Source: Halolamina sp. CBA1230 (lineage in GTDB: Archaea; Halobacteriota; Halobacteria; Halobacteriales; Haloferacaceae). Taken from it: DNA of 64,000 nucleotides. Below, piece by piece: positions 1-14,775 of this stretch. How positions within the stretch are numbered: position 1 is the first letter of the stretch; every line of letters starts with the position of its first letter. Both the position numbers and the translations under genes were made by a program. The notes below the pieces were generated by a model. The model was not told where the DNA came from. It made no database searches and worked only from the letters and a program-made list of their open reading frames with translations. Location of the stretch: NCBI RefSeq assembly GCF_002025255.2, contig NZ_CP054588.1, positions 62,001 to 126,000 on the forward strand, in the 5' to 3' direction.

Positions 1-24
1 TCCTCCCATGGATAAAGCCATGGG
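1..24 (+). mobile_element. Terminal hairpin of an IS1341-type (tnpB) element, element body outside the window
   Basis: A 7-bp perfect stem (CCCATGG / CCATGGG around ATAAAG) is followed by GTTTCCGC. The same layout, a CCC stem with an AA-rich loop, a GGG arm and then TTTCCGC, closes the tnpB element at 57550-57569 on its tnpB-5' side. By that comparison this is the outer end of a related IS200/IS605-family element lying to the left of the window. It could also be a solo end or MITE. Confidence 0.5.
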
Positions 25-192
25 TTTCCGCCTCGAAATTCGTATGAACCCCCCGATTTGAGCGGTCAGCTAAAGAGTCGAGTTGTGGGTTTTCACGACT
101 CCAGCCGTTTTATTGGTGAATTTCGAGGGAGGGGCACACGTATTCTTCATCCGTGGAATGCATTTATTCGAGTCAAGCTACTGTACTGTCTC

Positions 193-831
193 ATGGATGA
201 ATTGACGGCAACCATCTCGTTCGACGAATTCGTCGACATGCCGGAGTTCTATGGATCCGGTGCAGCGGGATATCGCCTCGCGATGGTGAAAGACCGGGCG
301 GACTTTCTCGACTTGTTCGAGGGCGCTCGGCATGTGGATGCAGTGACGTACGCTGAGACCCCGGAGCTGATGGTGCAGATGCTGACAGAGTACGATATCG
401 GCTCGTTGGACGTGCTCATCGGGAATGCCGAGGATTATGCCGACCAGGTCAACGAGGTTTCGACGGCGAAGTCACTCGTCCAGCTGCGTGAAGCCGACCG
501 GCTCACGATCCGGTTGAAAAATCAGAAAACGGTCCACTCGAAGATCTATCGGATCGTTATGCCGGACGATACGGTCAAACTCGTCCATGGCTCGGCAAAC
601 CTTTCGCGGAACTCCTGGGAGTACCATACGAACCAGATCTCGGTCTTGACGACTGATGTCGGGACGGAATTGGATACGGAGTTCGAACGGTTCATCGACC
701 AGTACCGCGATGGCTACAGCGACCAAACGCTTCTTGAGGGGCTAGTCGAAGCCCTGGAAGAAGCCGACTCCGCAGGAACGAGAAAATCGAATCGAATACT
801 GGGTCGGCGCTGGCGATCTGGATGTGAGTGA
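193..831 (+). pseudogene. Phospholipase D-like protein, N-terminal part, frameshifted
   Basis: The product carries a PLD-superfamily signature near residues 115-140: VHSKIY, then a gap, then GSANLSRNSW, the HxK...GSxN arrangement of PLD nucleases and phospholipases. I chose ATG 193 because the extension back to TTG 58 looks non-coding. The frame closes with TGA at 829-831. Between about 781 and 838 the natural protein runs in the +1 frame (ENRIEYWVGAGDLDVSD), after which the original frame resumes (ALNQDAVEDLKDVADEV). That implies an extra base near 781 and a missing base near 837. The downstream frame leads to an Argonaute PIWI domain. Catalysis is unknown, and a second HKD motif was not found in this part. 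The result is either a decaying gene or sequence errors. Confidence 0.7.
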
Positions 832-885
832 TCGGCCGCACTCAATCAGGACGCCGTCGAGGATCTGAAAGACGTCGCTGATGAA

Positions 886-2553
886 GTGCGGGCCGTCGTC
901 GAAGACCCGGAAGAGGCCGACGGGACAGTGGCGTTCGTCGAGGAGCCAGAAAACGCTGATCGAGCAGTCATCGAATCGACCGACGACATGATCGACGACG
1001 ATGATGCACCGGCCGCCGAGGAGTCGGGCGAAAATGAGGAGTCACCGGACGTGGGCCTTGTCGAATCTGACCACGAGACTGAACTCACAGACACGTTGGA
1101 CCGCCCCCGTGTGCGGGCGCCCGACGAAAAGATCCGGATGGGTACGAGCAAAGTAGACAAGGATACAGCCGACGAGTTCGGTACAACCCTTCGCGATCGC
1201 GGTGCGACTGTCGAGGACCACAGCATCACGGCGCCACTCGATGCGTACACAAAGCAGGTCAAGGAATCCACGTCGATTCCGACGATGTCGGTCCTGCCGG
1301 AGGCTGAACAGGTGGTGATCGGCGAGGACGACGAGATGATTCTCGTTGCCACCGACGAACCGACGCCCGACGTCCTCGATCACTGTCTCGGAACGATTGA
1401 AGACTACATTGAGACCGTCGAGAATCACGGGCATACACAGTCCGAGACGGCCGTGATGGCGCAGATGTATGAGGCGTTCCTGTACGGCTTCTGGGCGCCG
1501 TTTGCCGACCAGTACGCCGAAGCTCTCTCGTCGCCATCACGGACGCTTGACAACGTCCTGCAGCACCTCTATATCGAGGATCTTGTTTTTGTCGTTATCC
1601 CAGAGCGTATTGTGGAGTATTGTTCTGACCCAGATACGGATACGAACGAAATCAGGACTGAAGACGGGAATTTCCGAAGCCGAATCAAGATCGTTGGGAT
1701 GCAGGAGAAACCCACGCAACTGATGACACCGAGGGCACTTCGGGGTGGAAACGACGTTCAGGAGCGCTCAGAAATGGCGTGGAATATCGCTGTCGGAATG
1801 CTGTACAAGGCGCGTGAAGGCAGACCTTGGAAATTAGCGGATCTCCGGAGTAGAACGTGCTATGCGGGCATCTCGTTTTATCAAGAACGCTCTGATGACC
1901 CGGACACTCGGGCTGCAATTGCCCAAGTCTTCATTGACGACGGAAGGAACTTCGTGATCGAAGGAGGTGCTGTGGAAGATGTCGCTACTGAAGAGCGCCA
2001 AACCCATATTTCCTACTCCGATGCGAAGCGGCTCGTTGAGAACATCCTTGAGGAATATGGGAACCAGCGTGATGAAATGCCGAGGCGGTTAGTCCTCCAC
2101 AAGTCTTCGAACTTCTTAGATGACGAAACGAGAGGGTTCGCAGATGGGGCAAAAGACGTGAAGACAAAGGAATTTATCACCGTCCGCAAGCGGCATCCAC
2201 TCCGTCTGTTCGGTCAAGGTGACAATCCACCCCTACGTGGGACACTTGCTATTCCGCCAGGAGAACGAGAGTATTACCTGTACACCACGGGATTTGTCCC
2301 CGAACAGTCAGTGTACAATAACCCAGGAACGCCGAAGCCGCTAGTTCTTCGACCGCATCCAGAGTATTTCACAGGAGATTACCACCGTATCTGTGAGGAA
2401 GTTCTCAAATTCACGAAGTTAGATTGGAACAGCTCCGATTTCTGTAAGCGTCTCCCAGTTACGATTGGGATTGCTGACGCTGTAAGCGAAATTTTAGCCG
2501 AGCCTGCTGCTTCAGACATCAATCTCCAGACACACTATTACTACTACATGTGA
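886..2553 (+). CDS. PIWI-domain (long-B Argonaute-like, catalytically inactive) protein fused to the PLD-gene middle section
   Basis: Two parts of different character share one frame. Bases 886-~1575 encode an acidic linker and helical region that continues the PLD gene upstream. From ~1576 the product matches the PIWI domain of prokaryotic Argonautes in order: FVVIPE, MLYKAREGRPWKLA, CYAGISFYQ (1858-1884), an AQVF strand, RLVLHKSSNF (2086-2115), PPLRGT, YLYTTGFVP, TKLDWNSSDF, and the aromatic C-terminal end YYYYM. In active Argonautes the GISFY serine (codon 1873) and the SS after HK are aspartates, so the DEDX tetrad is lost, as in long-B pAgos. MID and PAZ domains are missing. Codon use becomes AT-richer after the junction. 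I infer that recombination replaced the Argonaute N-terminus with PLD-gene sequence. A genuine PLD-PIWI effector is the alternative. Confidence 0.8.
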   Translation: MRAVVEDPEEADGTVAFVEEPENADRAVIESTDDMIDDDDAPAAEESGENEESPDVGLVESDHETELTDTLDRPRVRAPDEKIRMGTSKVDKDTADEFGTTLRDRGATVEDHSITAPLDAYTKQVKESTSIPTMSVLPEAEQVVIGEDDEMILVATDEPTPDVLDHCLGTIEDYIETVENHGHTQSETAVMAQMYEAFLYGFWAPFADQYAEALSSPSRTLDNVLQHLYIEDLVFVVIPERIVEYCSDPDTDTNEIRTEDGNFRSRIKIVGMQEKPTQLMTPRALRGGNDVQERSEMAWNIAVGMLYKAREGRPWKLADLRSRTCYAGISFYQERSDDPDTRAAIAQVFIDDGRNFVIEGGAVEDVATEERQTHISYSDAKRLVENILEEYGNQRDEMPRRLVLHKSSNFLDDETRGFADGAKDVKTKEFITVRKRHPLRLFGQGDNPPLRGTLAIPPGEREYYLYTTGFVPEQSVYNNPGTPKPLVLRPHPEYFTGDYHRICEEVLKFTKLDWNSSDFCKRLPVTIGIADAVSEILAEPAASDINLQTHYYYYM

Positions 2554-2627
2554 CTTCGGATAGTATGCAGTTGAGAACAGAAGTGCCCCTGGTTGACTGG
2601 TTGAACAGACCTCCAAAACACTTTAGA

Positions 2628-2647
2628 CCATAGTTCGCGTACTATGG
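2628..2647. promoter_or_regulatory. Palindromic operator in front of the toxin-antitoxin pair
   Basis: CCATAGT and ACTATGG form a perfect 7-bp inverted repeat around TCGCGT, ending 3 nt before the ATG at 2651. An A/T-rich CTTTAGA box lies just upstream. The position would cover the start of a leaderless transcript, as expected for autorepression by the winged-helix protein it precedes. Confidence 0.6.
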
Positions 2648-2650
2648 ACT

Positions 2651-3280
2651 ATGTCCAACGCTCCAACTCCCATCCAACCACCGGATGCGGGACACACCGC
2701 ACACCGGTTTTTCGTCATCCAAGAGCTGCTGGGGACTCCTGATCTCGCGCGGTTCTACACAGATCTCTTGATCAACTCCCCTACAACGGTCACGGCAGCC
2801 CGTGAGCGCCAGGGTTTCTCTAAGAGTACTGCCTACAAGTACGCAAATACACTGGCCGAGTTGGGTGTCGCAGAGGAGTTGGAGGAGTACGAAGATGGCT
2901 CTTCACTCTGGCGTGCCGACCCCGTGAGTGGAGACTGGACAGACGAAATAACCCTCGAACTCGGTCCCGCCATTATCGCTGTCTATGGCGCAACCAGTGT
3001 GGACGACGATCTCGAATTGTTCGTTGACCGCCACGGGAAGGCTGCACTCGCACCGGCGGTCATGGCCACGCTCACTTACCTGCAAGGCGAGACAACGCGT
3101 CGTGGTGTCGCGGATGAACTCGGTATCCCTGCTGTGGAGGCCATCGCGGTCACTCAAGCAATTGAGCGGATCATCGCCGTGGTGAAAGGCCACGACCCAA
3201 CCCTCAGCGATATCACGTTCGAGGTGGACGTTCACGAACGCGCAATCGAGCAGGGACCGTACCAGCGAGCCGATGAGTGA
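2651..3280 (+). CDS. Winged-helix DNA-binding protein, likely antitoxin
   Basis: A 209-residue acidic protein. Residues ~15-90 form a winged-helix unit whose recognition region is SKSTAYKYANTLAELGVAEE, a layout common to haloarchaeal transcription regulators. A second helical repeat (~140-180: TYLQGETTRRGVADELGIPAV) looks like another HTH. The last 8 bases overlap the PIN-domain gene that follows, a coupling typical of type II toxin-antitoxin pairs, and a palindrome sits immediately before the start. I infer an antitoxin/repressor. The fold is clear, but the partner relationship rests on gene order only. Confidence 0.75.
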   Translation: MSNAPTPIQPPDAGHTAHRFFVIQELLGTPDLARFYTDLLINSPTTVTAARERQGFSKSTAYKYANTLAELGVAEELEEYEDGSSLWRADPVSGDWTDEITLELGPAIIAVYGATSVDDDLELFVDRHGKAALAPAVMATLTYLQGETTRRGVADELGIPAVEAIAVTQAIERIIAVVKGHDPTLSDITFEVDVHERAIEQGPYQRADE

Positions 3281-3812
3281 GGAGCATCCGTCTCCGTTCC
3301 CGACAGCCCTAATTCTCGATACAAGCTTTCTTCGAACCATCGGGGGAACGGAATCCACCTCGTATCAAACATTCATACAGTACATCAGAGAGGAGGGAAT
3401 CGACCTGTATCTGACACCGGGTGTCGTGGAGGAACTCACGGAGCAACGCGGATACATTAGTATCGACTGGGTTGACCGAGCGGACACAGCAGCGTGGATC
3501 AATCGCATCGATACCGTGCAGCCAGGGGTTCGGGTCCACGACGGGCCGCGTGCTGGGGAGATCATGGATCGGGTTCATGAGCGTCTGGCGAAGTTTGAGC
3601 AGACAGATCCAGACGAGCTGAGGAAGACTGATTCAGAACTTCCAGCGGCTGCCGTGATGCTTCTTGGTTCAACAGTGCATGACTCCGTCGGGATTTTGAT
3701 TGACGACCGGAACGCTGAGCGGGCGATTTCTGGTGTGATCGACAATACGTACTATGAGGGGCGAATTCGAGTACTCAGCATCTGGGATGCAATAGAGTAT
3801 ATCGAGTCCTGA
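3273..3812 (+). CDS. PIN-domain ribonuclease, likely VapC-like toxin
   Basis: A 179-residue protein with PIN-fold landmarks: the first acidic strand LILDTSFLR (residues ~12-20), the acidic helix VVEELTEQ (~52), the central DSELPAAAVMLL (~120) and the late strand VGILIDDRNAERA (~138-150). These supply the four acidic residues that bind Mg/Mn in PIN nucleases. The start ATG lies inside the end of the upstream winged-helix gene (8-nt overlap), so the two are translationally coupled. A VapC-like endoribonuclease acting on tRNA or mRNA is the family norm. The target here is unknown. Confidence 0.75.
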   Translation: MSEEHPSPFPTALILDTSFLRTIGGTESTSYQTFIQYIREEGIDLYLTPGVVEELTEQRGYISIDWVDRADTAAWINRIDTVQPGVRVHDGPRAGEIMDRVHERLAKFEQTDPDELRKTDSELPAAAVMLLGSTVHDSVGILIDDRNAERAISGVIDNTYYEGRIRVLSIWDAIEYIES

Positions 3813-3817
3813 CTGCG

Positions 3818-4822
3818 TCAGAGATCGTCTAAGTAATCCCTCCGCTGTTCCATTTTCTCTTCCTCTGAGCGCGAATCATAGTGCATCGAGAGTACTGTTT
3901 CTGTCGCGCGATCTCTGACCGCCTTCATCGGCCATCCTTCCTGAAGCGCGTGAGTGATACCTCCCCTGCGAAGTGCGTGGGGGCTCTCCACAGACGGGCA
4001 TCCAGAAGCTCCATCGTACGCTGTTGCTTCACACTGTTCGATCTCACGACCATGCGGACACTCCCCAGTTACGACGCAAGGCCTCGTGAACCGATAGCAG
4101 TCACCGCGCAGCGTTGTCGTATGAGCACGCCCATGGGATGTCGCAATTAACGGTTCCCGGCCGTGCTCGTCAGTCACCGACGGTCGAGTATGCTCCAACC
4201 AATCATCCAGCAACTTACAGACGTGGTCTGAAAGGGCAACAAAGCGTTCCCCTTTACCTTGATTCTTCAGCGTCGTCCCCGTGTCGGGACGGTGGGCCAC
4301 CTCCAACGACTGCTTGGCAGGATCGTAATCAGCGCAGTCCAGTGCGTGAATTTCACCCACTCGCATCATCGTATGCCACATCAGCGTGAGAACGACGTGT
4401 GGCCGCGACGCGTATTTGTACTTCTCCAAGTAGTTCAGTATCCGATCTGCCCGTTCGGAACCCAGCATCTCATCGCGGATGTTGTCTTCGCCGGTCAAGT
4501 TCGGTGACAGAACCTTCGTGTGTAGATCCTGTTCCACACCATCAATCGACTCCAGCCACTTGATGAACACCCGCAGTGTATCCATCTGGGTCTTCTCAGT
4601 TGCCGGCGAGAGGTCACCCTCCATTCGCCGCCAAATTCTGAACTCGTGAAGCTGGCGTCCAGACAGCTCGTTCAGATTCGTGATACCTTCGTTGTCGCAC
4701 CACCGGATGAAGTGACCCAGTCGTGAACGATGAGAGTAGATGGTTGCTTGGGTGACGCTGTTTTCGCGGTCAGCGATGTATAATTCGAGTGCGCGTTCGG
4801 GTTCGATGGGTTCGAGACTCAT
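3818..4822 (-). CDS. Tyrosine recombinase/integrase
   Basis: A 334-residue phage-integrase-family protein. The N-terminal core-binding domain (residues ~10-95; SPATEKTQMDTLRVFIKWLE) is complete. The catalytic domain shows the Arg I motif MMRVGEIHALD (~160), HALRRGGITHALQ (~280) with the His-x-x-Arg pair, and the nucleophile in LSMHYD (~313). A Cys/His-rich insert (CVVTGECPHGREIEQCEA, ~235-255) precedes HALRR, as in several haloarchaeal integrases. It converges on the toxin gene, with 5 nt between them. It probably integrated or excised part of this island. No att site was identified. Confidence 0.88.
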   Translation of the reverse strand: MSLEPIEPERALELYIADRENSVTQATIYSHRSRLGHFIRWCDNEGITNLNELSGRQLHEFRIWRRMEGDLSPATEKTQMDTLRVFIKWLESIDGVEQDLHTKVLSPNLTGEDNIRDEMLGSERADRILNYLEKYKYASRPHVVLTLMWHTMMRVGEIHALDCADYDPAKQSLEVAHRPDTGTTLKNQGKGERFVALSDHVCKLLDDWLEHTRPSVTDEHGREPLIATSHGRAHTTTLRGDCYRFTRPCVVTGECPHGREIEQCEATAYDGASGCPSVESPHALRRGGITHALQEGWPMKAVRDRATETVLSMHYDSRSEEEKMEQRRDYLDDL

Positions 4823-10312: not shown

Positions 10313-13300
10313 CTATTGGACGCTTTGTTCGACGATGTCGATCTCCTCCTCCGTCAACCCGTACAACTCGTAGACGATCTCGTCGATCAGGTCGTCGGTG
10401 CGCTGGATCTTCTCATCGAGTTCGTCAGCGCGGGCTTTCGTCTCGCGGTACTGTTTCAGCCCATCGGCGACGTCGTCGACGCGCGGGAGCGTCAGCGCGC
10501 GCAGGCGGTCCACCAGCGAGTTGGTCTTGGTCGCCGTCTCGCGGAACCCCGCGAACCCGTCGGCCTCATCGACGGCGACGGGGACGAACGCCGCGATCAG
10601 GTCTGCCTCGGTTTCGGTGAGGTCGGTGATCCGCAGCGCCGGCAGGAGGTCGGTCTCGGTGTACCCCCACTGGTCGGTCTCGTGGGCGTCCTCGTCTTCG
10701 GGTTTGTAGCGCGCCGTCAGGCGGATCTCCACCGTCGACGACGACTCGCGGACGACCTCGGCGTCGCCGACCCAGAGATTCGGTTTCTGTTCGGCGGTCT
10801 GCTGGAGGATGGAGTCGGCGGCGTTCTCCGGGGGTTGGGTGAGGCCGATATCGGCGAGGGTCTGGCCGTCCTCGTAGGTGCCGAGGTGGTCGAGGAGAGA
10901 GAGGTTGAGCGAGCCACGCCCCTGATGTAGCTCTTCGTTCTCCGCAGCGAGGTACGAGAGGTACCCATGGGAGTCATCCGGGATCGTGATTCCCGATTCT
11001 TCCATACTCGATCGATATGCAGACTCAAATTCAGCCTCGTCCTGATCGGGTGCCGAGAACTGAGGAACGGGAACCTTCGACAGGTACGAGGTCATGAACC
11101 GACGGAAGTCTCCCCGTAGAACCGGACTGGTGTGATAAATAAAGAACCACGTCGGAGAGCTATTCAGGACAGCAAGGAGGTAGTAGCGGTGACGTTCGTC
11201 ATTCTCCTTCGGTTGAACCCCATAGGCACTATTCGGAATGTATGTTCCCCCATCCGCATCAGAAGCAAATTCCGACCGCTGACAGATGTCCGGAACAACC
11301 AATTTGGGAGATTCGAATAACTCCTTGGTTCGTGGACACCACAGAGAATACCACGTCGGATAATTCATCGATGCAGTACCTCGGTCGGAAAGGCGCTGCT
11401 TGAACTCTGAAAGATATTCGTACGTTTTCGGATAGTCTTCTTCTAGCCGCGCTTCCGGAATTTCACTAGTTCCCTCCTGTCCCAGTTCGTACGGGTAGAC
11501 CACTGCGAGGTCCGTATCCATGCTACCGTACCTTTCAACCTCATCACCGTCAATCAGCGGTCGTACTGTATCTGATTCAAGTTGATACGTTTCCCCGTTC
11601 GCTTGACTACGAACCGTGTATTGCTCGTCGCTTTGACCTTCAATTTCGAGGAAGAAAACTTCGTTATCCCCAGAGACGATCCCTTCCGAGATGTGCTCCG
11701 TTACCTCGCCCAGCGCTTCAGCGGACGACCGCATTTTCGAAAGGGCCTGCCTCTCCATCGGACCAGTAAGCACCCAACCGTCATCGTCCAATTCATTACG
11801 AGGGATTTCGGCGAACTCGAGGTGGTCCAACGACTGAGTCTGGAAGTCAGAGTCTCGAACCTCTGAGTACAGAAGATCCTCATGTTTTCCCAAGAAGAGC
11901 AAGCACGTGTAGGTCGTAGCGGTAGAGAAGACCTGTTGTTGTCCGAAATCGATGATGCGCCGCACCATCTGCCCCTCACCGAGATAGGATCTGAGACCCT
12001 GCCCGGCCTGTGATTCGAAGAATTTGTTCGGTAGGATGTATCCTAGATTGTGATCTTTTGCGATTCCTGCGCCCGCCTCAACGAACAGAGAGTAAAGGTC
12101 GAATCGCCCTGTTGAAGTTTCGTAGTTTTCGACCGCATATTCTGCCAGTTTGGGGTTCGTCTGTCGAATATTCTGTATCTTCACGTACGGCGGATTCCCA
12201 ACCACCGCATCGAACCCAGCCCCGTCCTTTCGCTCCCCGTCCTCGCCGAAGAACACCTCGGGGTATTCCAGTTCCCAATGGAAGAACTGTTCCTCCTCAG
12301 CCATCACCTGCGCCGTCGTGTACCAGTCCTCAGCCTCGATCTCGGCCCAGTCATCCTCGTCGTCGATGGCGTTAGCCATCTGCTTGTACGCGCCGTCGGG
12401 CACGCCGAGGTCGAATCGCTCGGCTGTGTGGACATTCGCCATCCCGAAGAGGCGCTCGTAAAGGTCGTCCTTCCGGATCTCCTCGTAGAGATCCTCCATC
12501 CGCTTGGCGTCGGCAACAGTCTCGTTGTCGACCGCTAAAAGATCCTCAACGAGGTCCATCACGTGTTCGAGCGCCTGCCGGCGCGTACGGCTGAAGTCGT
12601 CGAACAGAGTGGCCTGCTCCGTGCCGCTGGGCTCGTCCGTACCCAGGATCTCCGAGATGTCGCTGCCGACGAGCGAATTCCCGGCCTTCAAGTGGTGATC
12701 AAGGAAGGCCAGTGGCTGGTCGGTAGCGAGCGTCTCCAGCCACATGGAGAGCTTCGCCAACTCGACCGCCATCCCGTTCAGATCGACACCGTAGATACAC
12801 TCCCGAGAAATCTCGCGTCGAATGGTTTGCTCGTTGAACAGCGTCGACGTCTCCAGTTCGCGGACGCGCTCCATCACCGCGCTGGCAAGGTACTCCGTCG
12901 CGCTGGTCAGAAAGTGGCCCGAACCCATCGCCGGGTCAAGCACCCGGAGGTCCGTGACGCCCTTCCAGAACGCCACAACATACTCCTGCGTGCCGCGTTC
13001 AAGTCCCTGCTCGTCAAGGTCCGCTTCGAGTTCGTCGAGGAGTGGATCGACCGTCTCCTCAACGATGTAGCTGACCACATAATCCGGCGTGTAGTACGCT
13101 CCCGTCGCCTTCCGCTCGCCCTCGTCGTTGACGACGTACAGTTCACCTTCCCCAACAGTCTCGACGCGCTCGTCGTCGTCGATCGCCGTCGCCGGCTTCC
13201 AAACCTGCCCCCCGTCTTCGGCGACAGCCGCGTAATCTTCTGGCGCGATGCGGAACTCGTGTTCCAGCAGCCCCTCGTAGATCGTCCCGAGGTGGCGAGT

Positions 13301-14554
13301 GTCCAGGTCGGCGTAATCGGCCAGCGCGAACGATCCGTCCGCCGTCTCGGTCGTCCCGAGACGGTAGATCACCTCCGCGATGTAGCGATCCGCAACCTCG
13401 TTCTCCGCAAGGAACTCGTGCTGCTCGCGGTCGAACAGCCCGCCGTTGTACGCTGAGACGCCAAGCGACTCCTCCCCGGAGTCAACGAGCCGGAACAGGT
13501 CCTGTAGCTGGCTCCAGATAGAGTGGGAGTACTCGCTGTAGGCGTCATCGAACGTCTCCCCGCTCTCGATGCGGTCGTGGATGTCCAGCCGGATCTCATC
13601 GAGACTGAAGTTCTCGCGGTACTCCGTCCGCGCTTGCGGGTCCTCCGGGTCAATCAGATGCCGTGACTCCGCGTAGAGCACGAACATCAACCGATACAGC
13701 AACACGAGCGACTGCTCTTTCAGCTCCGCCAGCGCCTCCTCGTCGCCGGGGTCGATATCCAGATCATTCGTCTCGACGAACCCCTCGCCGAGCACCCGCA
13801 GCGCGGTGAAGACGTTGTCCTGCAGGTCCTCACCGAGCTCCTGCGCGGCCGTCTCGCTCTCGGACCAGACCGTCTCGAGGAACGTACTCCCGCCGGCCTC
13901 CCGGAACGCCTCGGGTCGGAAGAAGAGGTAGAAGTACTTGAACTCCTCTAGATTGCCGGACGCGAGGATCTCCGGCAGATCCACCTCGTAGTACGTCTCG
14001 GTCGCGTAGTCTTTCGTGCCGTAGAGCCGCCACTTCTTCCCGTCGGTGAGGATCCCCCACTGGAGCGACTCCGGCGTGTGTTCGAGGTAGTACTTCACCT
14101 GATGGGACGCGTCGCGGTACGACCGCTGCTCGCTGAATCGCTGCGTGAAGTCCGTGTCCCACTGCTTGGCTTCGAGTAGCGCGGCCGAGCGACCGAACGC
14201 CCCGGCAAGTTGTCCGTCCTGCTTCATCGCCATCGCGTCCCGGCGGTCCGCGGCGTCGCCGTACAGCACGCGGTCGATGTACCCGCCCGTGTCAGGCAGC
14301 GACGTTTCTTGAATCGTGTCGTACCCCAACGTGTCGAGAACCGGGTCGATCCACGACCCGAGCAGTGTATCCTCGTTGTACCCCGCGACGAGACCACCCT
14401 CGTCCTCCCAGAGTGCCTGTAGTTTCTCGAAGACCGCCTCAGCCTCGGCGTCGCAGTCCCACGCGTCCAAATCGTCGATGCGCTCCTCTAAGTAATAGCC
14501 TGAGAAGAGATCCGAATTACGGTACGGCCCTGCAGTAATCGTTGTTTGGCTCAT
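10313..14554 (-). CDS. Type IIG restriction-modification enzyme (Eco57I-type methylase with fused nuclease)
   Basis: About 1413 residues. The N-terminal PD-(D/E)XK-like part has GYIDRVLYGD (~92-100) and AALLEAKQWD (~124-133), a D...ExK pair. The N6-adenine methylase core has motif I DPAMGSGHFL (~541) and the catalytic motif IV NPPYVKI (~815). The C-terminal ~450 residues are the target-recognition region (TaqI-like specificity, LSKVPVPQF) and end in a coiled stretch (RETKARADELDEKIQRTDDLIDEIVYELYGL). One chain therefore cleaves and methylates DNA. Start MSQTTIT (14554) is preferred over 14575. There is no separate S, R or M gene beside it. A BREX or DISARM context was looked for and not found. 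Confidence 0.88.
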   Translation of the reverse strand: MSQTTITAGPYRNSDLFSGYYLEERIDDLDAWDCDAEAEAVFEKLQALWEDEGGLVAGYNEDTLLGSWIDPVLDTLGYDTIQETSLPDTGGYIDRVLYGDAADRRDAMAMKQDGQLAGAFGRSAALLEAKQWDTDFTQRFSEQRSYRDASHQVKYYLEHTPESLQWGILTDGKKWRLYGTKDYATETYYEVDLPEILASGNLEEFKYFYLFFRPEAFREAGGSTFLETVWSESETAAQELGEDLQDNVFTALRVLGEGFVETNDLDIDPGDEEALAELKEQSLVLLYRLMFVLYAESRHLIDPEDPQARTEYRENFSLDEIRLDIHDRIESGETFDDAYSEYSHSIWSQLQDLFRLVDSGEESLGVSAYNGGLFDREQHEFLAENEVADRYIAEVIYRLGTTETADGSFALADYADLDTRHLGTIYEGLLEHEFRIAPEDYAAVAEDGGQVWKPATAIDDDERVETVGEGELYVVNDEGERKATGAYYTPDYVVSYIVEETVDPLLDELEADLDEQGLERGTQEYVVAFWKGVTDLRVLDPAMGSGHFLTSATEYLASAVMERVRELETSTLFNEQTIRREISRECIYGVDLNGMAVELAKLSMWLETLATDQPLAFLDHHLKAGNSLVGSDISEILGTDEPSGTEQATLFDDFSRTRRQALEHVMDLVEDLLAVDNETVADAKRMEDLYEEIRKDDLYERLFGMANVHTAERFDLGVPDGAYKQMANAIDDEDDWAEIEAEDWYTTAQVMAEEEQFFHWELEYPEVFFGEDGERKDGAGFDAVVGNPPYVKIQNIRQTNPKLAEYAVENYETSTGRFDLYSLFVEAGAGIAKDHNLGYILPNKFFESQAGQGLRSYLGEGQMVRRIIDFGQQQVFSTATTYTCLLFLGKHEDLLYSEVRDSDFQTQSLDHLEFAEIPRNELDDDGWVLTGPMERQALSKMRSSAEALGEVTEHISEGIVSGDNEVFFLEIEGQSDEQYTVRSQANGETYQLESDTVRPLIDGDEVERYGSMDTDLAVVYPYELGQEGTSEIPEARLEEDYPKTYEYLSEFKQRLSDRGTASMNYPTWYSLWCPRTKELFESPKLVVPDICQRSEFASDADGGTYIPNSAYGVQPKENDERHRYYLLAVLNSSPTWFFIYHTSPVLRGDFRRFMTSYLSKVPVPQFSAPDQDEAEFESAYRSSMEESGITIPDDSHGYLSYLAAENEELHQGRGSLNLSLLDHLGTYEDGQTLADIGLTQPPENAADSILQQTAEQKPNLWVGDAEVVRESSSTVEIRLTARYKPEDEDAHETDQWGYTETDLLPALRITDLTETEADLIAAFVPVAVDEADGFAGFRETATKTNSLVDRLRALTLPRVDDVADGLKQYRETKARADELDEKIQRTDDLIDEIVYELYGLTEEEIDIVEQSVQ

Positions 14555-14775
14555 TGGTTGCGCGAGGAACGGCACCGGTTGAACGGAGATTCTCTGAGAA
14601 ACTGCTAGCAGACAGTAATGTGACTGAATTCAGAAAGATACAGTAAGACCAAAGTACTGCTAGCTTGAGAATACGCCAACTCGATGGTGGACGCTTCACC
14701 GATTAATCACATGCCTTCTACCGGTTCTTTCTCGGAGAATCGGAATGGCGGCTCGACGACCAATCAGTGCCGTGA

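Follow-up and report, generated by a model that had tools for sequence, protein, structure and literature searches.

The window analysed here is a stretch of 64,000 nucleotides from Halolamina sp. CBA1230 (bases 62001-126000 of contig C2, which is 254,488 bases long in a genome of 3.47 Mb and four contigs), and it holds pieces of a PLD-family gene and of an Argonaute (pAgo) gene that share one open reading frame (Table 1). This frame at 886-2553, first noticed in an earlier sequence-only reading and confirmed here, comprises 555 codons and stays open for 573 codons from stop to stop; we call its product the chimera. A PLD-like open reading frame precedes it in the same reading frame and terminates at the stop codon 829-831.

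Table 1. Features at the locus of the chimera (positions are those of the window).
Feature	Position	Strand	Basis
Stretch beside TnpB-type gene, no PLD homology yet	1-150		Locus comparison
N-terminal PLD domain remnant, 212 codons, HxK(x)15GSxN intact	193-831	+	ORF, Pfam, homologues
Frame-disrupted stretch including in-frame stop 829-831	766-836	+	Alignments to homologues
Middle part of PLD protein, open frame, ends before P-loop-like motif	840-1577	+	Homologue alignment
Joint of PLD and short pAgo genes	1577-1579	+	Alignments from both parents
Truncated short pAgo, residues 154-477 of a 477-residue relative	1579-2553	+	Profile, alignment, model
Native 3' flank of pAgo gene	2554-2582	+	Last base homologous to Halosimplex aquaticum (L057) is 2582
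Segment adjoining pAgo piece: HTH, PIN-like and integrase	2592-4741		Family search, plasmid match
HTH protein (DUF7437)	2651-3280	+	Family search
PIN-like protein, overlaps HTH protein gene	3273-3812	+	Family search
Integrase, convergent to HTH-PIN genes	3818-4822	-	Family search

The PLD-like nature of the upstream sequence is borne out by a match to the family RE_NgoFVII (E=1.9e-5; 24.5 bits, above the cut-off of 23.8) and by the 87-91% identity of residues 1-202 of the PLD-like frame to six haloarchaeal PLD proteins; PLDc_2 was matched at E=9e-6 and 26 bits, slightly below its 27-bit cut-off. The HxK...GSxN residues are invariant across seven homologues in an alignment of the homologues alone. 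Residues 1-230 of the chimera continue this similarity, at 83-87% identity to the following region in the same six proteins. Between the two lie frameshifts, which the sequence-only reading had suspected and which are present in the assembly: relative to the homologues (alignments with L045, L048, L049 and L050), about two nucleotides are absent near 770 and one near 832, and the out-of-frame stretch between these deletions supplies the stop. The stop cuts the catalytic PLD domain off from PIWI, so that they do not form one polypeptide, contrary to the earlier proposal that PLD sequence is joined in frame to PIWI; only the region between the PLD domain and a P-loop-like motif shares the open frame with PIWI. 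Taken as a whole, the PLD piece covers residues 2-471 of 766 with the stop inside, and is not a full-length PLD protein in one frame.

To judge from its sequence, the locus is a patchwork of pieces, because a TnpB-type gene stands immediately to the left of the window (L031:14691-15905; named by eye), the PLD and pAgo pieces follow, and an HTH-PIN-integrase segment begins at 2592. Homology to the PLD gene starts somewhere in 150-193, and the segment 2592-4741 is 95.9% identical to a plasmid of Natrinema sp. SYSU A 869. The HTH-PIN part of window 2592-4822 was found again in several haloarchaea, and in the searches of plasmids and of the genome_contigs collection the most similar relatives that carry a name are likewise haloarchaea. 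Elsewhere in the window, an open reading frame of 1420 amino acids on the minus strand (10313-14575) resembles, by eye, a single-chain restriction-modification methylase/nuclease.

The Argonaute piece and the operon of its intact relatives

Residues 230-555 of the chimera match the PADLOC family pAgo_I (E=2.8e-98), and the PIWI landmark motifs described in the sequence-only reading are present; its claim of Argonaute homology in the C-terminal part is real, except that the homology begins inside the MID domain and not at PIWI. The right-hand piece is made up of the final 324 of the roughly 475 codons of a short (MID-PIWI) Argonaute gene, with PIWI kept to its end and the first 153 pAgo residues, the first part of MID, gone. 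The closest intact copy lies on the Halosimplex aquaticum chromosome (94.0% identity in DNA over 1579-2582 and 99% in protein), and the next-closest among the matches listed on a Haloarcula sp. JP-L23 plasmid (84.4% in DNA over 1579-2556 without gaps, 95.4% in protein).

All 15 intact relatives that we aligned consist of MID and PIWI and measure 470-479 residues, one being read as 521 residues from an earlier start. Residues 11-476 of the Halosimplex pAgo align almost end to end with the solved short pAgo 9om4, a SPARHA pAgo whose sequence score (E=1.9e-51) is level with that of the SPARDA pAgo 9jsb (3.5e-51). A predicted model of the Halosimplex protein, of moderate quality (mean pLDDT 69, pTM 0.68), matched SPARDA pAgo chains best (9vx1, 9qbp), with SPARHA, SPARTA and SPARSA pAgos matched as well. 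The window piece starts at residue 154, in this model at a predicted strand (155-159) that eight predicted secondary-structure elements precede in the intact protein. The earlier label 'long-B' is accordingly wrong: since the piece begins at residue 154 of a MID-PIWI relative that aligns with short pAgos, the Argonaute half is a truncated short pAgo, REase/SPARDA-like in type. The long-B candidate showed no N-PAZ-MID-PIWI arrangement in the close relatives, and the best PDB long pAgo chains (750-790 residues) reached only E of about 5e-4.

Serine occupies the GIS and HKSS positions in 16 of 16 aligned rows, the window included, which upholds the earlier observation of serine at catalytic positions for the two positions inspected; we take these to be two positions of the PIWI catalytic tetrad. 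Short C-terminal remnants of this pAgo with an internal TAG occur in two other genomes (G254:C1:1950109-1950375 and G290:C10:73843-74037), so that the window genome is not alone in showing decay of this Argonaute. Truncation of short pAgos also has a precedent in the literature, where six short pAgos without MID are reported (PMC6299218).

In 14 of 15 non-window loci the pAgo stands together with a partner gene and a divergent pair encoding about 289 and 254 residues (L032-L042, L044, L055 and L057, the last being the source of our queries; the exception is L043). All three partners scanned match PADLOC Aga_REase_Archaea (PDLC02417) with E values from 1.4e-98 to 2e-167. Our search of the window's own genome returned no match to the REase-type partner, and all eight chosen control genomes with this pAgo were positive; of the four operon genes, the locus record that covers the chimera (L031) has the pAgo piece only. 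NCBIfam named neither the short pAgo nor two partners, and the one divergent pair scanned had no convincing name in Pfam, PADLOC or NCBIfam. Its member of about 254 residues starts MARYFLDTG or similarly and is PIN-like by eye, and the pair may belong to the short pAgo system as a toxin-antitoxin-like component.

The PLD gene family and the joint

The left parent is a haloarchaeal PLD protein of about 760 residues, for which six homologue frames measure 766-902 residues depending on the start. The window keeps its N-terminal 60% or so, and the C-terminal 300 residues or so are gone, the cut falling just before a P-loop-like motif (IEGKSDAGKDK in the homologues); the lost half carries in the homologues this EGKSDAGKDK motif and, later, IFTTND...RNR. 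These motifs fit the earlier guess of a 'PLD/ATPase gene', but its ATPase part found no family match and the fold model is poor (mean pLDDT 46.9): Pfam returned for the full-length protein only PLD-type families and one marginal DUF, all below cut-offs, so that ATPase is a label read from motifs. A PDB sequence search with the PLD protein returned nothing meaningful, and NCBIfam named neither it nor the two proteins right of the chimera.

The family is widespread in Halobacteria (31 of the 32 relatives of the chimera in genome_contigs are of PLD type), and at L045-L050 and L058-L088 the protein appears as a conserved orphan. At L047, L048 and L050 its gene has neighbours that look, from a reading of their sequence by eye, like Mre11/Rad50 genes. 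At L051 (4378-9240) a long pAgo of 895 residues is followed directly by a 706-residue PLD protein, a full-length relative of the left parent at 30% identity, in the layout of APAP.

The switch from one gene to the other is sharp to the base. PLD-side DNA homology stops at 1577 in five of six loci and at 1579 in the sixth, and 11 PLD homologues differ from the window past 1577, where the query ended; on the pAgo side, homology begins at 1579 in the two closest intact genes. The parents could thus share at most 1-3 bases at 1577-1579, which argues for illegitimate joining rather than homologous recombination. Their alignments contain no repeat or long common sequence there. GC3 drops from 0.74 and 0.73 left of the joint to 0.53 right of it, in agreement with the abrupt change of composition noted earlier; as the intact Halosimplex pAgo has 0.54, the lower value is native to the pAgo gene. 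Another haloarchaeon (G177) carries a PLD gene of the left-parent type and a short pAgo 78 kb apart on a single contig of 180.7 kb, so the two parents can share a replicon.

Both halves occurred in one match only in the window's own genome, among the matches listed. A half was matched in 119 of 391 genomes of the class and in 60 of 170 of the family (own included in each), both halves in the family again only in the own genome among the matches listed, and all six genomes of the same genus matched neither half. The plasmid search returned 114 records, none covering 80% of the query and the best 40 of the 114 lacking both halves together; the 32 relatives in genome_contigs, none with both halves, are 31 PLD-type proteins whose matches end at residue 228 or 231 and one pAgo-type protein (232-555); the phage search gave no match, and the two stretches in IMG/VR that fit the peptide pattern encode no relative. 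With the junction DNA as query, 25 of 170 family genomes matched, none but the own crossing the joint; a 44-base junction pattern, required to match exactly, was absent from genome_contigs, a result of little weight because the own genome is possibly absent there. Some class rows extend past the joint, at most 41 residues beyond it (G148, 2-272; G177, 212-555; G358, 214-555; G305, 217-555), and the open frames in which they sit, 902 or 477-512 residues long, are of PLD or pAgo type; one plasmid row, H8, spans chimera residues 205-555. The idea of a single-chain PLD-PIWI effector in the sequence-only reading thus finds no second instance, the halves never standing together outside the own genome among the matches listed; this is the outcome that the sequence-only reading itself had named as refuting a true fused effector.

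Origin and age of the chimera

The reading we favour, at a probability of about 0.9, is a recent accidental chimera of two broken genes, the decaying scar of an illegitimate recombination; the accidental origin to which the sequence-only reading had also leaned is supported by the base-sharp switch of homology, the intact parents elsewhere, the missing partner and the broken PLD half. As both genes are intact and separate in other genomes, the locus looks like a gene wreck rather than a new kind of immune protein. We infer the mechanism of joining, its recency and the lack of function as follows. A deletion or end-joining event using at most 1-3 shared bases would have left the 5' 60% or so of a PLD-family gene fused, on the 254-kb haloarchaeal contig, to the last (3') two-thirds of a gene for a short Argonaute, which thereby lost its start. 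Joining two genes keeps the frame by chance in one case in three, and the frame across the joint would have been kept in this way. Nor did the genome yield a match to the REase-type partner, and the locus would be decaying, the PLD piece also being frame-disrupted and carrying a stop. Against this reading stand the fused frame, open for 573 codons, and the pAgo piece with almost no amino-acid decay, as function would also give.

That near absence of change bears on age. With substitutions polarised by the Haloarcula gene as outgroup and five ambiguous codons dropped, the pAgo piece shows 28 synonymous and 3 nonsynonymous changes on the window branch and 18 and 0 on the Halosimplex branch; all three nonsynonymous changes fall on the window branch, a difference that is not significant (Fisher p=0.29). 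Were the window branch fully neutral, about 95 nonsynonymous changes would be expected on it, and if the piece has been neutral since the break, at most about 9% of the branch (an upper bound) postdates it. In the PLD half, the frame-disrupted stretch left aside, dN to 37 relatives has a median of 0.081, within the relatives' own range of 0.059-0.189, with dS near saturation. With so few nonsynonymous changes, either the break is recent or, with lower probability, selection still acts on the piece; recency is favoured because the PLD frame is broken, the start of MID is lost and the partner was not found.

Among the other readings an assembly artefact, in which genes were misjoined or the frame breaks are base-calling errors, fares best and is still improbable. 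The joint occurs in no other record among the matches listed, as a misassembly would explain, but the parent alignments offer no repeat or long shared sequence at which a misjoin could have arisen, the 254-kb contig runs on beyond the chimera both ways, and a search of the own genome for the lost halves of the PLD and pAgo genes, expected elsewhere if fragments had been misjoined, matched only the chimera locus.

It is less probable again that the PLD gene already stood beside the short pAgo, or had newly become its partner, before the break, so that the scar would record a PLD and short-pAgo operon. The distant PLD relative directly beside the long pAgo at L051, the published haloarchaeal long-A pAgo-PLD (APAP) systems (PMC11442185) and the two genes 78 kb apart in G177 speak for such an association; against it, none of the 37 close PLD loci has the short pAgo or its operon genes in the flanking stretch covered (at least two genomes being represented twice among the 37), and an REase partner adjoins the pAgo in 14 of 15 intact short-pAgo loci.

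We regard a functional single-chain effector, with translation perhaps beginning at GTG 886 or further downstream and with a PIWI piece that still binds guides or targets, as very improbable. The open frame of 573 codons, the scarcity of nonsynonymous changes and the PIWI domain kept to its end are what it would need, but the stop splits off the PLD domain, the lost 153 pAgo residues comprise eight secondary-structure elements predicted in a model of moderate quality, the genome search gave no REase-type partner, and no second genome has both halves among the matches listed. Equally far-fetched is a 555-residue chimera made from an internal start and selected as a partner-free PIWI decoy or silencer, with the PLD-protein linker region replacing the lost start of MID, although the near absence of amino-acid change is compatible with it.

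Relation to known Argonaute systems

With 99% identity to the pAgo in the Halosimplex aquaticum partner-pAgo pair, the right half resembles SPARDA-like systems of a short pAgo and an REase-type partner (Aga_REase_Archaea), and it also fits their PIWI without a catalytic tetrad at the two inspected positions, which we take to be catalytic. It differs in that these systems consist of MID and PIWI without N or PAZ, as the intact relatives do, whereas the window piece starts inside MID. With the N-terminal third of the pAgo gone and no partner found in the genome, the system in its known form is not expected to assemble. The left half likewise retains 83-91% identity over about 430 residues to six PLD proteins of about 760 residues, with HxK...GSxN kept, but it has lost the C-terminal 300 residues or so and its frame is broken near residue 200.

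Long-B pAgos with effector nucleases share with the chimera a PIWI domain lacking catalytic residues at the positions inspected, whereas the chimera's close intact relatives are MID-PIWI only. To our knowledge, no fusion of a PLD protein to PIWI is known so far, and a functional chimera would therefore be the first. In the literature matches listed, as far as their titles and the starts of their abstracts go, no such fusion appears, and those on decayed pAgos are general pseudogene papers only.

APAP combines a haloarchaeal long-A pAgo with the PLD protein AgaP (PMC11442185). A distant relative of the PLD half adjoins a long pAgo at L051, as in APAP, whereas the chimera's pAgo half is short, has serine at two catalytic positions, stands in no operon and is not an active long pAgo. 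HxK and GSxN are 15 residues apart in both the PLD remnant at 193-831 and the L051 PLD protein, against about 49 reported for AgaP (PMC11442185), so we do not call the L051 protein AgaP. The PLD-family kinship with the L051 pair is suggestive and does not make the chimera a system.

An open frame that holds both PLD-protein and PIWI sequence could be misannotated as a new effector architecture, although it looks like two unrelated genes joined by chance, and our analysis removes this tempting false positive. On a small scale the locus also shows cleanly how an Argonaute defence operon is wrecked.
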